DNA of 64,000 nt from an uncultured Eubacteriales bacterium (GTDB taxonomy: Bacteria > Bacillota > Clostridia > Christensenellales > Aristaeellaceae). Below the pieces are notes generated by a model. That model did not search any database. It was not told the DNA's origin and saw only the letters and a program-made list of their open reading frames with translations. How positions within the stretch are numbered: position 1 is the first letter of the stretch; every line of letters starts with the position of its first letter. The stretch is from contig ONJM01000002.1 of the NCBI GenBank assembly GCA_900318145.1, forward strand, positions 274,748-338,747, read 5' to 3'. Below, piece by piece: positions 53,408-64,000 of this stretch. Both the position numbers and the translations under genes were made by a program.

Positions 53408-53442
53408 TTTAGCGGATTTAAGGAATGGAGGAGTTTTCTGGC

Positions 53443-54348
53443 ATGAACACTACACTTCTGATTATGGCTGCCGGCCTCGGTTCAAGATATGGCGGTAATA
53501 AGCAGGTGGACCGTATCGGGCCCAATGGTGAAATCCTGATGGAGTATTCTATTTATGACGCGGTTGAAGCAGGTTTTGACAAGGTTGTTTTCGTTATCCG
53601 CCGCAGCATGGACCAGATGTTCCGTGAATTAATCGGTAACAAAATTGCCAAGAAAGTCAGCGTTTCCTACGCATATCAGGAATATGACTCCCTCCCCGGA
53701 GGGTTTATCCCTCCTGCCGACCGCACAAAGCCTTACGGAACGGTTCATGCCGTCATGTGCGCGAAGGATCTTATTCATGAGCCTTTTGCCGTCATCAACG
53801 CGGACGATTATTACGGGAAAGACGCTTTTGTCGCCATGGCTTCTTCTCTCAGGCGCCTTCGCACAGAAGAGAACAAAGCGTCCATGGTTGCATATTATCT
53901 GAAGAACACGGTTTCAAAAAACGGTCATGTGACCCGCGGCGTCTGCACGACGGACGAAAGTGGCCATCTTGTCAAGGTTACTGAAACATACAGTATCCTT
54001 CCTTTCCCGGATGGAACAATCCGTGATATCCACGATAATCCGGACGGAGTGATTCTCGATCCGGACGCTCTCGTTTCCATGAATATGTGGGGATTCAATC
54101 CTTCCTTTTTTGAAGCGGGCACAAAGTACCTGAGTGATTTCCTGCAGGATCCTTCCGGGGATCCCCTGAAGAAGGAATGTCTGCTGCCGGCGCTTGTGGA
54201 TACGATGATGCACACCACGGGGCTCCAGGTAGAAGTTCTTTCCACGAAAGCAGTATGGTTCGGCGTGACGTACAAAGAGGATAAGGATTATGTTGCCGGC
54301 GAACTGAAAAAACTTCACGAAAACGGAAGCTATCCCGCCGCGCTGTAA
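53443..54348 (+). CDS. Sugar nucleotidyltransferase (NTP_transferase family)
   Basis: A 301-residue Rossmann-type nucleotidyltransferase. The N-terminus LLIMAAGLGSRYGGNKQVDRIG has the GxGxR...K nucleotide-binding signature, followed by PNGEILMEYSIYDAVEAGFD, and AVINADDYYGKDAF near 115-128 contains the metal-binding Asp. It resembles UTP- or dNTP-sugar-1-phosphate transferases; the sugar cannot be told. The ATG at 53443 follows GGAGGAG with a normal gap, unlike the earlier ATG at 53425. Closed by a clear terminator. Confidence 0.8.
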   Translation: MNTTLLIMAAGLGSRYGGNKQVDRIGPNGEILMEYSIYDAVEAGFDKVVFVIRRSMDQMFRELIGNKIAKKVSVSYAYQEYDSLPGGFIPPADRTKPYGTVHAVMCAKDLIHEPFAVINADDYYGKDAFVAMASSLRRLRTEENKASMVAYYLKNTVSKNGHVTRGVCTTDESGHLVKVTETYSILPFPDGTIRDIHDNPDGVILDPDALVSMNMWGFNPSFFEAGTKYLSDFLQDPSGDPLKKECLLPALVDTMMHTTGLQVEVLSTKAVWFGVTYKEDKDYVAGELKKLHENGSYPAAL

Positions 54349-54390: not shown

Positions 54391-54424
54391 CGAGGGTTAC
54401 CACTCCTGAGCGGTAACCCTTTTA
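54391..54424 (+). terminator. Terminator after the nucleotidyltransferase gene
   Basis: GGGTTACC and GGTAACCC form an eight-base stem around ACTCCTGAGC, followed by TTTTAT. Confidence 0.8.
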
Positions 54425-54445
54425 TCGTCTTGAAGGAGTGATTTC

Positions 54446-57400
54446 ATGTCTTCCTTTCTGCTCAGCATCGGCACTGCCGCCGATAAGCTGCTGCCAGATA
54501 TTGTTACAGCCCTGTCCTGCGGCGCCGCAGAATCTGCCGGGCGTCTGAATATATTCAGCCTTTCATCCTCCGGTGAAAATAACACTCAGACAGCTGAACT
54601 TGTTTCGGATATTGCCTCCTGCCGCCGTATGCTGGATGATTCCGTCAACTGCTGCCTTTTTCCGGTGGATTTTTCTTTTCAGTCATGTTCACCGGTTTTT
54701 CACTCTTTTCATGATCTTTCGGAAAATCCGGACGCGTCCCTGCTGATTTCCGCACTTCGCGGAAAAGGGCTTCCTTTATCCTGCCAGACGGACCGGGAAG
54801 CTGTTGAATGGAGTTTTTCAGATCTTCTGGAGCAAACGCAGGATGAGTCTGTTTCTCCTTTTCTTGCCTGGCTGAATACAATCCGGACAGAACTGGATCA
54901 AAATCATGCTGTCCGGCTTTCCTGCATTGCGGATCTGACCGATCCTTTTGCGGCGGGCATCCTCCTTGTGATGCTTCAGGATTTTCGGAACCGCTTCAAA
55001 AACAGACCGCTGTCTGTTTTTGTCATTGCGCTGGCCGTGTCTGCTTCTCCGGTGCCTTCCGGCTTTTTCAACGGTCTGAAAACCATGCTTGAAGCTGTTG
55101 AAAGCCGGAAACTGCTCCGCATGAATGATACGGATCCTTTGCGCGGGGCGGATTCCGCCTGGCTTTTGTCTCTTCCTTCATCCATGATGGAGTTTCCGGA
55201 TTCTTTCCGGATTCTTGCTGTTTCCGCAGCGCGTGTACTCGGTATAATCCACGGCAGGGAAGAACTTCCTTCTCCCGGATTGCATACACGTGAAACAGAC
55301 GGAACCCTTTCCGTCAGTTCGCTTGGGAATCAGGCTGGTTCTTTCGCGTCGTATATGAATCTGTCCGTATGGCTTCTGGCCGATGTGATTCCTTCCCTTC
55401 GGAATTTCCTTTCACATCCCGCGCGTCTGCGTTCCCTGGCGCTGAATCCGAGAACTTCCCTTTTCCGTCAGTTTTTTTCTGCTGCGGAAAACAAGAATCT
55501 TCTGCCGGTACTGGATCAGATTGAAAAAACGCTGAAAACCGTTCTTTCAGTCTGCCTTCGTTTTCTCCGGTCTGTTCCCTCCGCTCTTCGTTTTTCCTCC
55601 GAAAACGTGTCTCTATGGCAAAAGTCAGTGGATGCATGCGGACGCTATATTACCGTTGCGTCTGAATACGATACGTCTGTTGCGGAAGCGCGTGAATCCG
55701 GTCTGGACGCTGTCCGTCCTGTCCATCGTGTTTCTTTGGATGATACGGAAGAGGAAAAACTGATACGCCGTCTTGAGGATATGAAGCAACAGCTGGAGGA
55801 AGAAGAAAGAGCAAGGAATGAAACGCTTTCCGTTCTCGGGGGATATCGCGCGCTCCAGGTGCGTCAGGATTGCCTTTTTCGATGCAGGACTGCTTTGAAG
55901 GAAGCAGAAATCAAAGCCGCTTCTCCTGATGAAAACGCGGATCATCTGACAAGGTTGAAGCAGGAACGCCGCGTTCGTCTGCTGAAAGCGGCCGTGGAGC
56001 GATGCGAATCCGAACTTTTTCACGATAATATATATTCATCCGTTTCCGCAGTTCCGAAATCAGGGCTTTCCGGTACTGATCCGTACAGCGGTACGCCGCT
56101 TATCGCTGAATCCTGCCATATTCTTGAACAGCTTATTGCCGGTGAAGAATTCAATTCCAGAGTTCCGCTCCTTTTTCCGGATCTGCCTGAACCGGATCCA
56201 AAGACCCGCTGGAAACAGTTGCAGTCTTCCCTGAAAAACTTTGTGACGGAACGTCCGCTTCCGCTGATGCTTGCCAAAGCTTATGAACTTTGCACAGCCG
56301 AACTTTCGTCCTGCAGTTTCATATCCCGAAGCGTAATGCCTGGGCTTCCCCTTCTTCCCGATCTGATTCCGGATACTCCCCTGCTTCGGATCCGCGATGT
56401 AATCTCCCTGCTGCCCGATACCTGTCTTCCGGAATACAGCGTCGCTGAACAGCGCGGAGTTCTTGCAATGCTGCTTCTTCGCCAGTACCGCCGCCGTTTC
56501 CCCGGGGAGGCAGATATTTCCGTCACATGCTGCGAGCCGCAGGCTTCCCCCCTGCTCCGTTACTGGCTGTCCGCCAACCTTTCGGAAAAAGTATACATTA
56601 TTTCTTTTGCAGCAGAGGATAACGTTTACCCTTTTGCTCTGATCCTTCCGGGTAAAGCCTTTCTTCCGGCCCGGCGCACAGCGGCTTACCGCGGCCTGAT
56701 TCCTGCTTTTGCAACCTGGTTTAACCCTGAAAACGCTTCTTTCTCTGATCCGTGTGATTACCTTGGCGAAGGAGACCGCCGGCTGCTTCTGGAATGCCTG
56801 GACGCCTGGCTTCCCGCTCTGCCGGAAGATATGCCGCCTGAATTCCGTGTTTTCCTGCAGAATTTCCGGAATGATATCTCCCGCAGCCGCGCCCCGTTCC
56901 ATGAAGACCGGCATTTTTTTACCCGACTGCGCGCGGTATGTGGTCTGCAGACCCTTCCCGCCTATGCGCCTTCCCTGAAAAAACTCCCCTGCTTCTATGA
57001 GCATTTCCTTGGCGAAGATAGGATTGGTTCCTGTATCACTGGGATTTCCGGTTTTTCGGCGTCTTCCTGTACAGATATTCCGGAAGAAGTCCTTTACCTG
57101 TATCGGGATATCCCGTTTGCCCGAGAGGATTCCTCGCTTTTACTGGACAGCCCGCATGCGGCCGGCGAGGATTATACACTGAAACGTCTTGCTTCGGAAT
57201 GTGAGATTCTTTCCGACTCATCGGACGATTACAGGGATGCCCTTGTTACCGGCCTGCATCATCTTCTTGCACGTTTCCCGGATATTCTTCCTGAAATCCG
57301 CGAGTCAGCGAATACACTCCTTGTGGATGCGGAAAAGCCGGTTATCAGAAAGGAACCTTCCATTGAGTGGCCCTGGGATTCAAAATCTCCTTCCCTGCTC

Positions 57401-59590
57401 ACCGTACTGCGTGAATGCCTCGGAGATACGCTGCCTCAATATGCACTTGATCCTTTCTCAGATCTTCTTGCTGTTTTTCCGGCCCGCGGCGGAGATGTAA
57501 TCGGTGACGCGATGCTTTCCGCCATGTGTACAGTTCTTCCGCGCGAGAAGCCTGCCGGAAATCAGGAAGCGTCCGTTCTTCAGCCGGATGCGGTTCTGCC
57601 GCCTCTTTCCCCGTCTTTCGGGCATGCGCTTTGTACATTGCCGGAAGGACGCACACTGCTCCGTCCCGGACTTCTCTCCTTTTCACCGAATGAAGACGGA
57701 TCTTTCCGTGTAACGCTCACGCTGGACGGCGCGTTCCCGGTCCGGCTGATCCGTTGCTATTCTCCGGAGGAAATCCTGCACCTCTATGCGCATGATATTC
57801 CTACTGTCGCTGTTTGGCCTTCAGTTCCTTTCCCGAGGGATGAATGGAAAGCATATTTCGTATACGCGCATATGACGGCACCGTATGCCTTGTCCGTTCT
57901 TCCGGAAAACGGTATCTTTACTGAAGTTCCGGAAATCTCAGATAAGCGTCTTGCGGCTGTCCTCGAATCCTTCCCGGTTTGTTTCTCCCTCTCACGGGAT
58001 GGGAAAACAGCCGGAATCCTTCCAAATCTTCTTCCGCAGCCTATTCGCGAATCTTCAGATCCGGTAGAGATCTGTGTTGATTTCGGCTCTTCCGGTACTT
58101 CTGTGGTTATTGCCTCCGGCGGACAGCGTAGACCGCTGCACGGACCTGTCATGGTCCGTACGCTGATGAACAATCCTGCGGCTTCACGGGATCTTCTGCG
58201 CAGGGAGTTTATTCCTGCTGTACCCGTATCCGCGCTGCTTCCCACCGTTTCACGCCTTTTCCGCAACGTGCCGGGATCTTCCCCTGTACCTTTCGTGGAC
58301 GGAATCATTCTGATGTCTTCTGATCTGGAAGATCTTCTCTCCACGCCTTCGGATGCTGTTTACACAAGTCTGAAATGGGAGGAGGAAAAAGGACGTTCGG
58401 GCTTTCTCTGCCTGCATCAGGTGCTGCTGATGTCCGCCCTTCAGGCAAGATGTGACGGCGCTTCTTCTGTTTCCATGCGTTTCTCCCTGCCGGATGAAAT
58501 GGCGAAGGAAGGCCGGGAAACCCTCATGAATCTGTTTCTTTCAATCTGCGGAAACGTACTGTTGGAAAGCGGATATTCCGTACCTCCGGATGGTCTTCCC
58601 GTTTCCTTTGCCTCCGAGAGCTCCGCGCTTGGTGCTTATTTCCGCTACTGTTCTCCGGATGATACGCGCGGAGGATTTATGGTCCTGGATCTTGGCGCGT
58701 GTACAGCTGATATTTCCCTTTTCCTCCGCGGTCGCGAACAGGCTGTCCGTACGTGCCAGATACCGCTCGGAATCCATTATATGCTGCTCCCCTCGCTTCT
58801 GCGGGATCCTGATCTTCTGACCCGTGAATTCGGTTTTTATCCGGACGAAACTTTCCGCCGCAATCTATCTCTCCTGACACGCGCGCTTCATGCCGCACGT
58901 ACAGATACCACTGCGCTTCGCAAAGCACGGGTGGCGCTGGATTATTTCATATCAGACCATCTGAGCATTCTGATTTCTCTTGCGCTCAGCCTTGCATCCG
59001 GCGGTACAATTACCCGCTCAGGAGCGTTGCTGCTGCTGTTTTTCTCCTACCTGCTGATGCTCTCCGGTCTGGTACTGCTTCAGCTGGCGGCTGATCCGAA
59101 CAAAAATGATTTTCTTCCCGAACAAATGTCTCTTTGCCTTGCCGGTCGGGGTTCATCTCTGCTCGAAGCGCTTCCTCCGCCGCTGAAGACATCGCTCTGG
59201 CATTTCCTTTCCATGTTCCGGAACAGGCGGGTAGCTTCCATTTCTCTCCTCTTTTCTTCAGAGAAAAAGATGGAGATTCCGGTCGGTCTTTCAATGCTGC
59301 AGGAAGTGTATCATATGCTGCCGCCCGCCTCCGCCGTGCCTGCTTCCATCGCTGTACGTCCGGCTGAACTGCTTCCCGAATTCCTGCTTCGTTTCCACCG
59401 AGAATTCCCGGCTGCCTCGGAACTTCTCTTCCCCGGTTTCTATACCAATGATTACTATCATCCTTTCTCCGCCCTCGGAGAATCGCTGATTTCATCTTCC
59501 ATTGACCAGTCTTTCCCGCCTGCGGATACTCCCCGTCCCTATGATTCCCTCTCCGCATGGATCGGAAATCTTCTGGATCTCATGCCGTGA
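54446..59590 (+). CDS. Giant protein of unknown function with C-terminal actin/Hsp70-type ATPase domain
   Basis: A single 1714-residue frame, ATG behind AAGGAG. No signal peptide, so probably cytoplasmic. Residues 1-300 are predicted alpha/beta; SFLLSIGTAADKLLPDIVTAL followed by LSCIADLTDPFAAGILLVMLQ and a later SVFVIALAVSASPV resembles, weakly, the Rossmann order of tubulin/FtsZ-like proteins, with the GTGSG signature lost. About 434-525 is a charged coiled coil. The middle (about 530-1200) is unrecognised. From about 1207 the actin-fold signals appear: phosphate 1 CVDFGSSGTSVVIA (about 1209-1222), phosphate 2 VLDLGACTADISLFLRG (about 1413-1429), adenosine loop SLCLAGRGSSLLEA (about 1562-1575), separated by a strongly hydrophobic stretch (about 1523-1548). 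It is coupled to an SpoU methylase 11 bases downstream. Confidence 0.7.
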   Translation: MSSFLLSIGTAADKLLPDIVTALSCGAAESAGRLNIFSLSSSGENNTQTAELVSDIASCRRMLDDSVNCCLFPVDFSFQSCSPVFHSFHDLSENPDASLLISALRGKGLPLSCQTDREAVEWSFSDLLEQTQDESVSPFLAWLNTIRTELDQNHAVRLSCIADLTDPFAAGILLVMLQDFRNRFKNRPLSVFVIALAVSASPVPSGFFNGLKTMLEAVESRKLLRMNDTDPLRGADSAWLLSLPSSMMEFPDSFRILAVSAARVLGIIHGREELPSPGLHTRETDGTLSVSSLGNQAGSFASYMNLSVWLLADVIPSLRNFLSHPARLRSLALNPRTSLFRQFFSAAENKNLLPVLDQIEKTLKTVLSVCLRFLRSVPSALRFSSENVSLWQKSVDACGRYITVASEYDTSVAEARESGLDAVRPVHRVSLDDTEEEKLIRRLEDMKQQLEEEERARNETLSVLGGYRALQVRQDCLFRCRTALKEAEIKAASPDENADHLTRLKQERRVRLLKAAVERCESELFHDNIYSSVSAVPKSGLSGTDPYSGTPLIAESCHILEQLIAGEEFNSRVPLLFPDLPEPDPKTRWKQLQSSLKNFVTERPLPLMLAKAYELCTAELSSCSFISRSVMPGLPLLPDLIPDTPLLRIRDVISLLPDTCLPEYSVAEQRGVLAMLLLRQYRRRFPGEADISVTCCEPQASPLLRYWLSANLSEKVYIISFAAEDNVYPFALILPGKAFLPARRTAAYRGLIPAFATWFNPENASFSDPCDYLGEGDRRLLLECLDAWLPALPEDMPPEFRVFLQNFRNDISRSRAPFHEDRHFFTRLRAVCGLQTLPAYAPSLKKLPCFYEHFLGEDRIGSCITGISGFSASSCTDIPEEVLYLYRDIPFAREDSSLLLDSPHAAGEDYTLKRLASECEILSDSSDDYRDALVTGLHHLLARFPDILPEIRESANTLLVDAEKPVIRKEPSIEWPWDSKSPSLLTVLRECLGDTLPQYALDPFSDLLAVFPARGGDVIGDAMLSAMCTVLPREKPAGNQEASVLQPDAVLPPLSPSFGHALCTLPEGRTLLRPGLLSFSPNEDGSFRVTLTLDGAFPVRLIRCYSPEEILHLYAHDIPTVAVWPSVPFPRDEWKAYFVYAHMTAPYALSVLPENGIFTEVPEISDKRLAAVLESFPVCFSLSRDGKTAGILPNLLPQPIRESSDPVEICVDFGSSGTSVVIASGGQRRPLHGPVMVRTLMNNPAASRDLLRREFIPAVPVSALLPTVSRLFRNVPGSSPVPFVDGIILMSSDLEDLLSTPSDAVYTSLKWEEEKGRSGFLCLHQVLLMSALQARCDGASSVSMRFSLPDEMAKEGRETLMNLFLSICGNVLLESGYSVPPDGLPVSFASESSALGAYFRYCSPDDTRGGFMVLDLGACTADISLFLRGREQAVRTCQIPLGIHYMLLPSLLRDPDLLTREFGFYPDETFRRNLSLLTRALHAARTDTTALRKARVALDYFISDHLSILISLALSLASGGTITRSGALLLLFFSYLLMLSGLVLLQLAADPNKNDFLPEQMSLCLAGRGSSLLEALPPPLKTSLWHFLSMFRNRRVASISLLFSSEKKMEIPVGLSMLQEVYHMLPPASAVPASIAVRPAELLPEFLLRFHREFPAASELLFPGFYTNDYYHPFSALGESLISSSIDQSFPPADTPRPYDSLSAWIGNLLDLMP

Positions 59591-59601: not shown

Positions 59602-60348
59602 ATGGAACTGATTACATCTGTCAAAAATCCCCGCGTACAATTCTGGAAATCGCTTGGCAGCCATAAGGGCCGCGCAGAAGCTGACGCGTTTCTTGTTGAA
59701 GGCTCCCGGATGGTGCTGGAAGCGGTTTCTTCTGATTTCATGATCCTTTCCGTACTGATACGTGAAGATTATGCTCCATCCTTCACGCTTCCTGAAAACA
59801 TTCCGGCATTCCGCCTTTCAGCGCATGCCTTTGCCGCTGTAACCGATACCCGCACGCCCCAGGGAATCGCCGCAGTACTCTCACGACGTGTCCTTCCCCT
59901 GGAAGGTACCCGTTTTGTAGCGCTGGACGCTGTACAGGATCCCGGCAACGCAGGTACGATTATCCGCACCGCGGATGCTGCAGGATTTGACGGAATACTC
60001 CTCGGACCGGAATGCGCTGACCTGTTTTCTCCGAAAGTTCTCCGTTCCACCATGGGAAGCATCTTCCGCATGCGTTTCGCTTTTCCTCAGGATCTTCCCG
60101 CAGCACTTTGTGATCTTCGGGAAAAAGGTTTTTCAGTTCTCTCCTCCCAGCTGGACGGCGAACCTTTCTTTGAGCGGAAAAATGTTTCTTCTTCCTTTGT
60201 CCTGATTATTGGAAACGAAGGAAACGGTGTTTCCGAAGCTGTAAAAGCCGAAGCCACGCATCATCTTCGTCTGCCCATGCGTGGAGGAGCCGAATCGCTG
60301 AATGCTGCCATAGCTGCAGGAATCATGATGTATGACCTAATGCGCTGA
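59602..60348 (+). CDS. TrmH/SpoU-type RNA 2'-O-ribose methyltransferase
   Basis: A 248-residue SPOUT methyltransferase: substrate-binding N-domain (SVKNPRVQFWKSLGSHKGRAEADAFLVEG near 5-33, partly quoted), and the knotted domain with ALDAVQDPGNAGTIIRTADAAGFDG near 110-135, VLIIGNEGNGVSEAV near 200-214, and RLPMRGGAESLNAAIAAGI near 222-240. The ATG at 59602 follows AAAGGAG 11 bases behind the giant gene's stop. The rRNA or tRNA target is not known. Confidence 0.9.
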   Translation: MELITSVKNPRVQFWKSLGSHKGRAEADAFLVEGSRMVLEAVSSDFMILSVLIREDYAPSFTLPENIPAFRLSAHAFAAVTDTRTPQGIAAVLSRRVLPLEGTRFVALDAVQDPGNAGTIIRTADAAGFDGILLGPECADLFSPKVLRSTMGSIFRMRFAFPQDLPAALCDLREKGFSVLSSQLDGEPFFERKNVSSSFVLIIGNEGNGVSEAVKAEATHHLRLPMRGGAESLNAAIAAGIMMYDLMR

Positions 60349-60436: not shown

Positions 60437-60507
60437 AGGGGCATGGTGTAATGGTAACACGTGGGTCTCCAAAACCTTTGTTGAGGGTTCGAATCCTTCT
60501 GCCCCTG
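60437..60507 (+). tRNA. tRNA-Trp (anticodon CCA)
   Basis: Folds into a cloverleaf: acceptor arms AGGGGCA (60437-60443) and TGCCCCT (60500-60506) with discriminator G, D-arm GTG/CAC, anticodon loop CTCCAAA with CCA at 60469-60471, and T-arm GAGGG/CCTTC with loop TTCGAAT. The anticodon stem has a G-T and a T-T step. The 3' CCA is not encoded. It has its own promoter and terminator and marks the edge of the following defence island. Confidence 0.95.
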
Positions 60508-60518
60508 CTGCAAATCAG

Positions 60519-61478: not shown

Positions 61479-63542
61479 TTACTCGACCCCCAGCGCCTTA
61501 AACACCGCGTCCTCCGCGCTACTGTACGGAATCAACTGAAACGCACCCATAAGATCCGCGGGTACCGTTGTGAAATCAATCATGGAAAGCGATGGGATCA
61601 GTACCTTCTTTGCGCCGCTGTCAAGGCAGCACTGCAGCGTGTTGGCCAGTTCATCCACCTTGATCATCGTACCGCTGATGCTGATCTCGCCGAGCACAGC
61701 CAGGCTGCCCAGGGTAGGCCGCCCCAGGGCGATGGAGCACAGGGCGATCAGGCTGGGCAGGGCCAGCTTGCCGGTCATGCCGATGCCCTGCAGATCCTGA
61801 TAGTTGACGATGTAGTCCTTCGTGGTGGTGCTGATGCTGCCACTGATCCGGTTGCCGTTGGCCTTAAGGAAGTTGAAAGCCGTGTTGGAGGATTCGCGGG
61901 CATCACGGTCTGTGCCGATGCCGGTTCGCTCGAACTTGCCGTTGCCGGGGAGCATCTGGCTCTCCAGCCGGAAGACACCAATCATGCCTGACTTGCCACG
62001 GCTGACGGTATAAATCTGACCGGGATTACACAAGCCCTCCGGGATCAGTTTGCCGCCGCCCTGTTCGGGGACGGAAACATAGTGCTCCTCGAAGGTCTCA
62101 TTGTCGATATAGCTGAAGTTCACATCGTAGAACTCCATGCCGCCCAGCTTCTTCAGCTGTTCTTTCACGCGGCGGCGCATCTCCAGCGCGATCTGCAGGA
62201 CTTCTTCCAGCTCTTCCTTGCTGAACTCGCCATCGGGATAGATCAGCTTCAGCAGGCCATCCACGGTGCGGCGCACGGCAATGGTGTCGCGCTGGTTCAG
62301 ATTCTTGCCAAGGCGGAACCAACGATCCAGCGCATCGCCATACTGCTCCTTGCGCAGTTCGCGGATGAACTCCGCCAGATAGTCCGTGATAAAGCCGTAA
62401 TCATCGGTAAAGTGCTCAGGGCGGAACTTGGGCACTTCCCAGCCGGGTAGGTAACAGTGGATGCGGTCAAGGAAGGCGGTATCCGTGCCCATCTCCGGCG
62501 GGAACGGGTCGAACAGGCTACTGGTTTTCAGCAGTACATCCACGCTCTGGTTGATGTTGCCAACAAAGACCATGGAGGCGGAGGCGGCCTTTTCTTCCTT
62601 GCCACGGGCGAAGGAACCGGATGCCATGTAGTCCTTCATAATCTGCACGCCATCTTTATCCTTGAACTTGATACCAGCCACCTCGTCGAAGGCCACACAA
62701 TCCCACAGACCCACCAAGCCAACCTGCTTGCGGGCCATGTTGTAGAACAGGTTAGCCACCGTGGTCTGGCCGCCGGAGACCAGAATGCTGTTCGGGGAGA
62801 TCTCCTTGAACAGGTGGCTCTTGCCGGTGGAGCGCGGGCCAAGCTCGCACAGGTTATAGTTGTTCTCTACCAGCGGCACCATACGCAGGATCAGCAGCCA
62901 CTTTTCACGGATCGTCAGCTCATCCGGCTCCATGCCGATGGAGCGCAGCAGAACATCCATCCACTCATCCTTTGTGAATGCCTTCCGTCCCGCTTTCAGG
63001 TCGTCGATGTCGATGTGCGGCATCTGGATCGGCGTCAGTTTCCGGATCTGGATGGGATAGCCGTTCTTCTTTTCTTCCTCGACGAACTCATAATCCAGTT
63101 GCACGATGCACCAGATGCCGCCACAGAGCAGCCGGTCAAACTTCTCAGGATACTCATCCTCAATCGGCACCTTCTGCAGACCCAGGTTGGAGAACTCCGC
63201 GAAATAGCGGTTCTTCTGGATATCCAGCTGCACGGTTATCATATCGATAACCGTATGGCTGCCGCGCTTGCGTAGCTGGGAGAGGATCTTCTGGCTCTCA
63301 TCCGGTCGCACGAAGTTGTCCGCCAGGATTCGTTTCACCTGCTGCACGCCAGATTCGATGATGGTGTCATCGTCGGAGGAGCAGTACTGGCCCAGCAGGA
63401 ACTCAAGGACATAGACAGGCACATTGGCCCCTTCCTTGATTTTCTTGGTCAGATCCTTGCGGACAATCCGCCCGTCGAAATGCTCACGCAGCTTTCCCTT
63501 GATGATTTCACGGGTATCCGATGTTGTCTCAAATCCAGACAT
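61479..63542 (-). CDS. brxL: BREX system Lon-related AAA+ protein BrxL
   Basis: A 687-residue protein of the BrxL family, a BREX phage-defence component that assembles into DNA-binding rings. It has a family N-terminal domain (about 1-200, LREHFDGRIVRKDLTKKI), Walker A LGPRSTGKSHLFKEI near 239-253, a Walker B-like CVAFDEVAGIKFKDKDG near 284-300, and a C-terminal Lon-like domain from about 540 (GRPTLGSLAVLGEISISGTM, AGAKKVLIPS-like GAKKVLIPSLSM). The reading frame is intact. It begins 15 bases after the pglX stop with CCGGAGG before its ATG, so the two are co-transcribed. Confidence 0.93.
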   Translation of the reverse strand: MSGFETTSDTREIIKGKLREHFDGRIVRKDLTKKIKEGANVPVYVLEFLLGQYCSSDDDTIIESGVQQVKRILADNFVRPDESQKILSQLRKRGSHTVIDMITVQLDIQKNRYFAEFSNLGLQKVPIEDEYPEKFDRLLCGGIWCIVQLDYEFVEEEKKNGYPIQIRKLTPIQMPHIDIDDLKAGRKAFTKDEWMDVLLRSIGMEPDELTIREKWLLILRMVPLVENNYNLCELGPRSTGKSHLFKEISPNSILVSGGQTTVANLFYNMARKQVGLVGLWDCVAFDEVAGIKFKDKDGVQIMKDYMASGSFARGKEEKAASASMVFVGNINQSVDVLLKTSSLFDPFPPEMGTDTAFLDRIHCYLPGWEVPKFRPEHFTDDYGFITDYLAEFIRELRKEQYGDALDRWFRLGKNLNQRDTIAVRRTVDGLLKLIYPDGEFSKEELEEVLQIALEMRRRVKEQLKKLGGMEFYDVNFSYIDNETFEEHYVSVPEQGGGKLIPEGLCNPGQIYTVSRGKSGMIGVFRLESQMLPGNGKFERTGIGTDRDARESSNTAFNFLKANGNRISGSISTTTKDYIVNYQDLQGIGMTGKLALPSLIALCSIALGRPTLGSLAVLGEISISGTMIKVDELANTLQCCLDSGAKKVLIPSLSMIDFTTVPADLMGAFQLIPYSSAEDAVFKALGVE

Positions 63543-63557
63543 ACACTTATCCTCCGG

Positions 63558-64000
63558 TTACTTTATCGGTGCCAGCACGTCAGCAAACTTAGCATAATTG
63601 ACCTTCACACCGTCATCCAGGTCAATGCCGATCATCTGATCGGCCAGGTGGTGCACCTTTTCCTCATACTTCCGCAGTTCTTCTGCCTGCGCTTGAAGGG
63701 CAGACAGACGTTTGGTCAGCTTCACGGCTCTGTATCTCATGCACGTAATCTGTGCGGACACGCGCGATGGTGTCCGGCTGCCAGCGGTGCATGTACACCA
63801 GCGCTTTGAAGCCGTTCTTCTTGCCGCTGTCAAACAGCCAGTAGATGGGACGCTTCTGGTAGATCTTCAGGTGATCCTTGTAGAAGTCGTTCAGGAAGTA
63901 GTCCCGGATGACCTCTCGAGGAGAGCCCTTACCACCCAGCGCATTGGCGATAAAGGTCAGGTTCTCTTCCAGCGTGGCTGCACCGTAGACCGTCTTCACC
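63558..64000 (-). pseudogene. pglX: BREX adenine methyltransferase PglX (BrxX), C-terminal end, frame-disrupted
   Basis: The 3' end of a long methyltransferase gene that begins beyond the window. One frame reads [40 protein letters not shown] and then runs to a stop at 63664; a second frame continues the family's end, [20 protein letters not shown] and HHLADQMIGIDLDDGVKVNY. The switch falls at about 63715-63735. Compared with other PglX proteins, roughly 20-25 residues of the connecting coiled coil are also missing, so a deletion changed the frame. The protein made would lose its last 55 residues or so. The catalytic part cannot be judged here. Confidence 0.8.

Follow-up and report, generated by a model that had tools for sequence, protein, structure and literature searches.

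The window analysed here (the whole stretch of 64,000 nucleotides) encodes a protein of 1714 aa at positions 54446-59590 of the forward strand. The first-pass annotation had reported this open reading frame, and it was found exactly as claimed, with an ATG start and a ribosome-binding site; that it is real and more than chance is confirmed. The gene, its parts and its neighbours are listed here.

53425..54348, + strand: nucleotidyltransferase-like gene, upstream (function named from the appearance of the sequence)
54433..54438, + strand: ribosome-binding site AAGGAG of the fusion gene (read directly)
54446..59590, + strand: whole fusion gene, 1714 aa, ATG start (read from the sequence and homologue searches)
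54446..55480, + strand: residues 1-345, degenerate tubulin-like (pseudo-GTPase) domain
54455..54487, + strand: residues 4-14, former first glycine loop (alignment)
54911..54961, + strand: residues 156-172, strand-loop-helix, site of the former GGTG loop (alignment, structure prediction)
55481..56335, + strand: residues 346-630, helical/coiled-coil tail (hhalign, structure prediction)
56336..58015, + strand: residues 631-1190, middle region, corresponding to the N-terminal part of the actin-like partner gene (hhalign)
58016..59587, + strand: residues 1191-1714, actin/Hsp70-superfamily ATPase-type domain (profiles, motifs)
58073..58105, + strand: phosphate-1 motif, residues 1210-1220, CVDFGSSGTSV (alignment)
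58682..58717, + strand: phosphate-2 motif, residues 1413-1424, VLDLGACTADIS (alignment)
59138..59161, + strand: adenosine motif, residues 1565-1572, LAGRGSSL (alignment)
59602..60348, + strand: SpoU-family RNA methylase gene, downstream

The layout had been described as one without a named family, and the whole 1714-aa protein indeed matched none in Pfam or NCBIfam. Pfam gave nothing above noise (one match with E 0.16, under its cut-off), and the same was true of NCBIfam and PDB-sequence searches with the fusion protein alone. Searches of PADLOC and PHROGs with the whole protein returned nothing useful, PADLOC giving no match at E ≤ 0.1. About 10 bases 5' of the ribosome-binding site lies a hairpin followed by a T run (54394-54423), and comparable elements were seen by eye in L026 and L027. 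The hairpin could act either as an attenuator or as a terminator for the upstream gene that allows read-through.

The gene had also been described as kept with housekeeping genes and coupled to the SpoU gene. The SpoU gene adjoins the fusion in 31 of 33 same-genus loci (exceptions: L016 and the contig-edge locus L045), and this part of the claim stood. The supposed overlap did not: the SpoU start is more likely at 59602, behind a ribosome-binding site of its own, close to the fusion gene. The nucleotidyltransferase-like gene is present beside the fusion in 22 of the 33 loci. Of the 11 in which it was not found, several include 6-9 kb of upstream sequence, which shows this flank to be less constant than had been suggested. 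Further downstream, a tRNA-Trp gene (60437-60508) separates the fusion/SpoU side from BREX genes, namely a BrxL gene (61479-63542, reverse strand; PF13337, E 1.4e-145) and a reading frame at 63664-63999 (reverse strand; no Pfam match above noise) that, by its appearance, is perhaps the end of a PglX-type methylase gene. These genes possibly form a BREX island at the tRNA gene. A defence role of the fusion gene read from them was rejected, as they lie beyond the tRNA gene and BrxL was found in none of the 33 same-genus loci, many of which had flanks of only 1.5 kb.

Distribution and sequence constraint

The fusion protein was detected in 33 of 61 genomes (the window genome and 60 relatives). 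These comprise 32 of the 37 genomes of the same genus (the window's own among them) and a genome of another family whose match was weak (E 8.9e-6). The five same-genus negatives are 60-79% complete, and all ten genomes that are at least 90% complete were positive. Full-length matches showed 36-65% identity; in G014, G024 and G031 only pieces were found, on short or separate contigs. A collection of assembled contigs yielded 13 loci, whose titles read Clostridia, Clostridiales or Lachnospiraceae; three titles name a source (goat reticulum, sheep rumen and goat omasum).

For comparisons within the family, we used an alignment of 30 full-length fused sequences (A1), from which copies of one genome held in two collections, the near-copies L031/L048 and the contig-edge partial sequences L023/L025/L045 were omitted. 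Mean pairwise identity (435 pairs) was 37.8% in the tubulin core, 38.3% in the helical tail, 43.5% in the middle region and 57.2% in the actin part. The dN/dS ratio was between 0.03 and 0.45 in 24 of 24 pair-by-domain comparisons (six pairs, with dS above 1 in two of them), ranging from 0.12 to 0.35 for the tubulin core and from 0.03 to 0.24 for the actin domain. Ratios below 0.46 throughout, together with the identities, indicate that both halves are maintained, the actin half most strictly. With its presence in most genomes of the genus, this bears out the earlier view that the gene is a maintained one.

The tubulin-like and actin-like halves

The N-terminus had been read as a possible degenerate tubulin-like region with two strand-loop-helices that have lost their glycines. 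Structure prediction placed these elements at residues 2-24 (strand 2-8, helix 10-24) and 156-183 (strand 156-163, helix 167-183), and the coiled coil was recovered as long helices between residues 385 and 523. The glycines are indeed lost: the GGTG loop of active tubulin/FtsZ GTPases is kept in six of six separate tubulin-like proteins (described below) but occurs in the tubulin core of none of the 30 fused rows. In the first loop (residues 4-14, FLLSIGTAADK in the window protein), G9 alone is invariant, and the equivalent loop reads GGTGNK in the separate proteins of L076 and L077. At residues 156-172, the commonest form in the fused family is DPF[SA]AG.

When the N-terminal half was compared with the separate tubulin-like proteins by hhalign, a probability of 99.3% was obtained (controls were run). 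Residues 380-640 alone gave 74.8% against the separate tubulin-like protein, to whose C-terminal tail residues 346-630 are related. The separate homologues themselves match PF13809 with E-values from 4.5e-7 (L077, over the cut-off) to 0.0034, and the N-terminal half is in this way related in sequence to bona fide members of the tubulin/FtsZ superfamily. Its predicted structure is of the tubulin type, with every Foldseek E-value of the model above 0.001. Plain HMMER searches gave no match: none of 18 fused N-termini matched PF13809 or PF00091 at E ≤ 1, and the window protein reaches the curated score of neither family (PF13809, Tubulin_2; PF00091), so that the profile check proposed earlier came out negative. 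The tubulin-like profile A2, in which row L039 includes residues upstream of the likely start, failed to detect the window N-half with HMMER, and a PDB search with the tubulin-like profile returned nothing at E ≤ 1. The hhalign match to PF13809-matching proteins, the predicted fold and the loss of GGTG identify the N-terminal half as a tubulin relative without the GTP-binding glycine loop.

The C-terminal part had been assigned to the actin/Hsp70 type. The three nucleotide signals occur in the expected order (residues 1210-1220, 1413-1424 and 1565-1572) and are conserved in the 30 aligned sequences, window included: no substitution occurs at D1212, G1214, D1415, G1417, G1567, R1568 or G1569, and D1422 and T1420 are retained in 29 and 27 sequences, respectively. 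The phosphate-2 glycines are altered, GGG having become G[AS] followed mostly by C or D; the second glycine is lost and the third mostly lost, which makes the ATPase activity (catalysis) of the actin half uncertain. The stretch of about 650 residues that had gone unrecognised is now accounted for, mostly as the N-terminal part of the actin-like gene, because six separate actin-like proteins could be aligned with residues 630-1714 across 965 columns (hhalign, 100%, E 5.7e-85; four controls, 0.1-1.4%).

A8, a profile built from the ATPase region of nine fused and nine separate sequences, matched solved members of the actin/Hsp70 superfamily in the PDB. The best match was Hsp70/BiP (E 4.9e-4), and 36 of the 37 matches at E ≤ 1 were Hsp70, actin-like, ParM or FtsA proteins, the remaining one being a BCL-2 relative. 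The fused-only profile A1 gave noise in the PDB, with no meaningful actin match. By hhalign, 15 MreB sequences (of 19 fetched loci, 15 passed a motif filter) were matched at 88% over 85 columns round one motif, with five controls at 0.0-0.5%; the fused family alone gave 70% against MreB in a run without controls, and four FtsA sequences gave 6.2%. The best Pfam match among 18 fused rows was FtsA (3.3e-5), in a row other than the window's, which itself matches no actin/Hsp70-type Pfam family. SrfB (PF07520) gave no Pfam match for the window protein or the 18 fused rows; of the profile comparisons suggested for the C-terminus, Hsp70 was thus positive through A8 and SrfB negative. The model of residues 601-1714 was poor (mean pLDDT 60), and fold searches with it returned immunoglobulin-like and RNase-H-like fragments and no clear actin fold. 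The assignment of the C-terminus is therefore upheld by motifs and profiles, on which the actin fold rests, and not by the model.

Separate homologues of the two halves

The weak match in another family (G058, locus L039) is a 1268-aa actin-like protein that adjoins a separate 596-aa protein with a GGTG loop. A search of 297 genomes of the order showed that the halves also exist as individual genes within the window's own family, in G176, G255 and G266. Of the 17 genomes listed that belong to this family but to other genera, these three gave a match, and in each of them the halves are unfused. In L076, L077 and L078, the end of the tubulin-like gene and the start of the actin-like gene overlap by four bases (ATGA, GTGA and ATGA, respectively); the A7 rows of these loci start 2, 1 and 16 codons before the likely start. 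The L078 pair sits, like the fusion, between nucleotidyltransferase-like and SpoU genes, with other genes intervening.

In total, both genes were found separately at 13 loci (L039, L076, L077, L078, L079, L080, L091, L092, L094 and L151-L154), and in 13 of 13 the actin-like gene follows the tubulin-like gene directly, in the same orientation. The survey of homologue neighbourhoods that had been proposed thus revealed adjacent pairs throughout. Nine of the loci come from the window's phylum, three from cyanobacterial plasmids (hosts Synechococcus NIES-970, Gloeothece PCC 7822 and Picosynechococcus PCC 7003) and one from a Prevotella record, so that three phyla are represented. Five plasmids, all cyanobacterial, carry an actin-like protein, and all five also carry a tubulin-like one. 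Likewise, among 391 genomes sampled across the class, the actin-like profile was found in two besides the window's and the tubulin-like profile in the same two only. A phylum survey listed 18 of 398 genomes, G000 and G942 with substantial matches and the other 16 with short matches in frames of 303-786 aa, which are perhaps ordinary actin-like proteins. PF13809 at E ≤ 0.001 was found in one of the 61 relatives, as a G023 piece under the cut-off with two stops in frame, and over the cut-off in none, in a search insensitive enough to miss the tubulin-like gene of G058. A search of phages with the tubulin-like protein of L077 gave no match.

In 12 of the 13 split loci, the pair is joined by a protein that has a signal sequence and a metal-site motif of the vWA-like kind, and small membrane-like proteins sit in between in the translated split operons; the vWA, lipoprotein, secreted and membrane labels were assigned by eye. 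The vWA-like gene of L152 is on the opposite strand. A vWA-like profile (A9) was built from eight of the 12 loci, so its three positives in the genome search are so by construction; on independent vWA-like loci it gave 9.7e-86, 7.7e-32, 9e-24 and 1.8e-5. This divergent profile found no vWA-like protein in six same-genus genomes or in G266, and nothing in the PDB.

Several split loci have features of their own. In L092 (10248-11695, reverse strand) the tubulin-like gene is spread over two frames, through an assembly error or a real break. The operon of L091 (6262-19999) encodes vWA-like, small membrane-like, tubulin-like, actin-like, coiled-coil, ZorA-like (E 2.9e-11) and ZorB-like (E 4.9e-19) proteins as well as a 1010-aa unknown protein cut by the end of the stretch, and is possibly a new Zorya-related or motor-linked system. 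L154 (8002-15052) holds an unannotated set of vWA-like, tubulin-like and actin-like genes in Prevotella sp. oral taxon 299 (Bacteroidota); its record, NC_022111.1, is labelled a plasmid in the collection though 1.77 Mb long. The Gloeothece plasmid Cy782204 (47.5 kb, circular, mobilizable) has two actin-like matches. The one in L152 (11249-14644) is directly behind the tubulin-like gene. The other (L093, 747-3239; E 7e-10) lies about 3.7 kb beyond this pair, with no tubulin-like gene directly before it and no PF13809 match in the gene that follows; it does not fit the pairing and is outside the 13 loci.

Origin, proposed function and alternatives

Actin-type and tubulin-type proteins represent the two major superfamilies of the cytoskeleton, and work on them is mostly separate. 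As their genes lie side by side in 13 split loci of three phyla and are joined in a single genus, the two proteins are predicted to be direct physical partners. Each half is related to separate proteins whose genes are adjacent elsewhere, and all fused sequences, which have lost the GTP-binding loop and conserved the ATP-binding motifs, group together: in a tree of 28 ATPase-region sequences (midpoint root; long branches for L078, L091, L092, L094 and L043), the 19 fused rows formed one group (99/98), and the split sequence closest to it was that of L078 (98/95). Among the genomes sampled, the fusion was found in one genus, and elsewhere the pair is separate.

We consider it probable (about 0.6) that a tubulin-like gene (residues 1 to about 630) and a neighbouring actin/Hsp70-type gene (about 631 to 1714) fused, and that the product is an ATP-controlled scaffold or filament. 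Overall, the interpretation given in the first-pass annotation was supported. The fusion could have arisen when the stop codon in the four-base overlap was lost through a small shift. Most split relatives have a vWA-like protein with a signal sequence and small membrane-like proteins as neighbours, which makes it probable that the tubulin-actin machine was originally linked to the membrane; on the simplest reading, the window lineage kept only the tubulin-actin pair, then fused it, and so retains the cytoplasmic core in one polypeptide. The tubulin half would neither bind nor hydrolyse GTP and would offer a fixed, nucleotide-free interaction surface, while the actin half would be an ATP-binding switch that changes conformation. 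Both halves together would form an intracellular scaffold or filament in which ATP alone controls an assembly that once used GTP and ATP. A stand-alone cytoplasmic role is suggested by the constant 1:1 stoichiometry, the absence of the membrane partners and the core status of the gene. A bolder version is more doubtful, and we offer it tentatively: this may be the first natural tubulin-actin fusion, a pseudo-tubulin that co-assembles 1:1 with an actin-like ATPase into a hybrid ATP-driven filament. Its ancestor would be an operon, widespread and so far undescribed, whose tubulin-like GTPase and actin-like ATPase, encoded together with a vWA-like secreted protein and a membrane protein, operate as a single machine.

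The leading PDB matches of the ATPase profile, Hsp70/BiP, would also suit a chaperone in which the C-terminal half acts as an Hsp70 nucleotide-binding domain, the middle region binds clients and the pseudo-tubulin is a mere adaptor. We think this unlikely, as actin-like ATPase, FtsA and MreB matches are present too and the ancestral gene partner is a tubulin-like protein. The Zor-like genes of L091 and the split copies on five cyanobacterial plasmids could mean that the protein is left over from a defence or conflict system linked to the envelope and still serves immunity. Near-universality in the genus, the SpoU neighbour in 31 of 33 loci, the lack of a PADLOC match for the protein itself and the position of the BREX genes beyond the tRNA gene, with BrxL unmatched in the 33 same-genus loci (many with flanks of only 1.5 kb), make such a role quite improbable. 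That same SpoU neighbour, found also near the split pair L078, might instead indicate joint action with the methylase in RNA or ribosome biology; the analysed stretches of the split relatives L076, L077 and L039 contain no SpoU match and Pfam shows no RNA-binding domain, and we give this little credence. Finally, the tubulin resemblance of the N-terminal half could be fortuitous and the region an ordinary Rossmann-like or helical one, in keeping with the silence of this half towards PF13809, PF00091 and A2 in HMMER searches; the 99.3% hhalign result, the predicted structure and the fold comparison render this hardly credible.

A literature search, with most subscription journals outside its reach, found no report of such a fusion or of a tubulin-actin operon, and the fusion is unprecedented as far as we have seen. 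The accessible parts of Makarova and Koonin (2010; PMC2875224) describe FtsZl1 with vWA, GTPase and OmpA-type neighbours and operons of FtsZl1/Tubulin_2 (PF13809) that mostly include a vWA-protein gene, and name no actin-like partner in them; the accessible text of PMC9871819 sets Tubulin_2 proteins aside as divergent. The separate N-half homologues resemble these systems in matching PF13809 and in the vWA-like gene beside 12 of 13 pairs (by motif), whereas the window protein lacks the glycine loop, is fused to an actin-like domain and has no vWA-like gene detected in its genome or in any of the six same-genus genomes. Our finding supplies an actin-type partner for the poorly understood Tubulin_2/FtsZl1 systems, and the partnership can be tested in cultivable hosts, as Picosynechococcus plasmids carry the split pair.

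Compared with Hsp70, FtsA, MreB and ParM, the fusion protein shares the three ordered motifs and profile matches, but differs in its phosphate-2 glycines and in a preceding stretch of about 560 additional residues. A resemblance to Zorya lies in the ZorA-like and ZorB-like genes of the split operon L091, found in a scan that covered the genes of this locus. The best-known bacterial pair of actin-superfamily and tubulin-superfamily proteins encoded side by side is FtsA-FtsZ. The split loci share this adjacency, but the order is tubulin-then-actin and the proteins, split or fused, are much larger. A replacement of the divisome was rejected, since separate matches of the FtsA type and to FtsZ occur near each other on a different contig of the window genome (C61).
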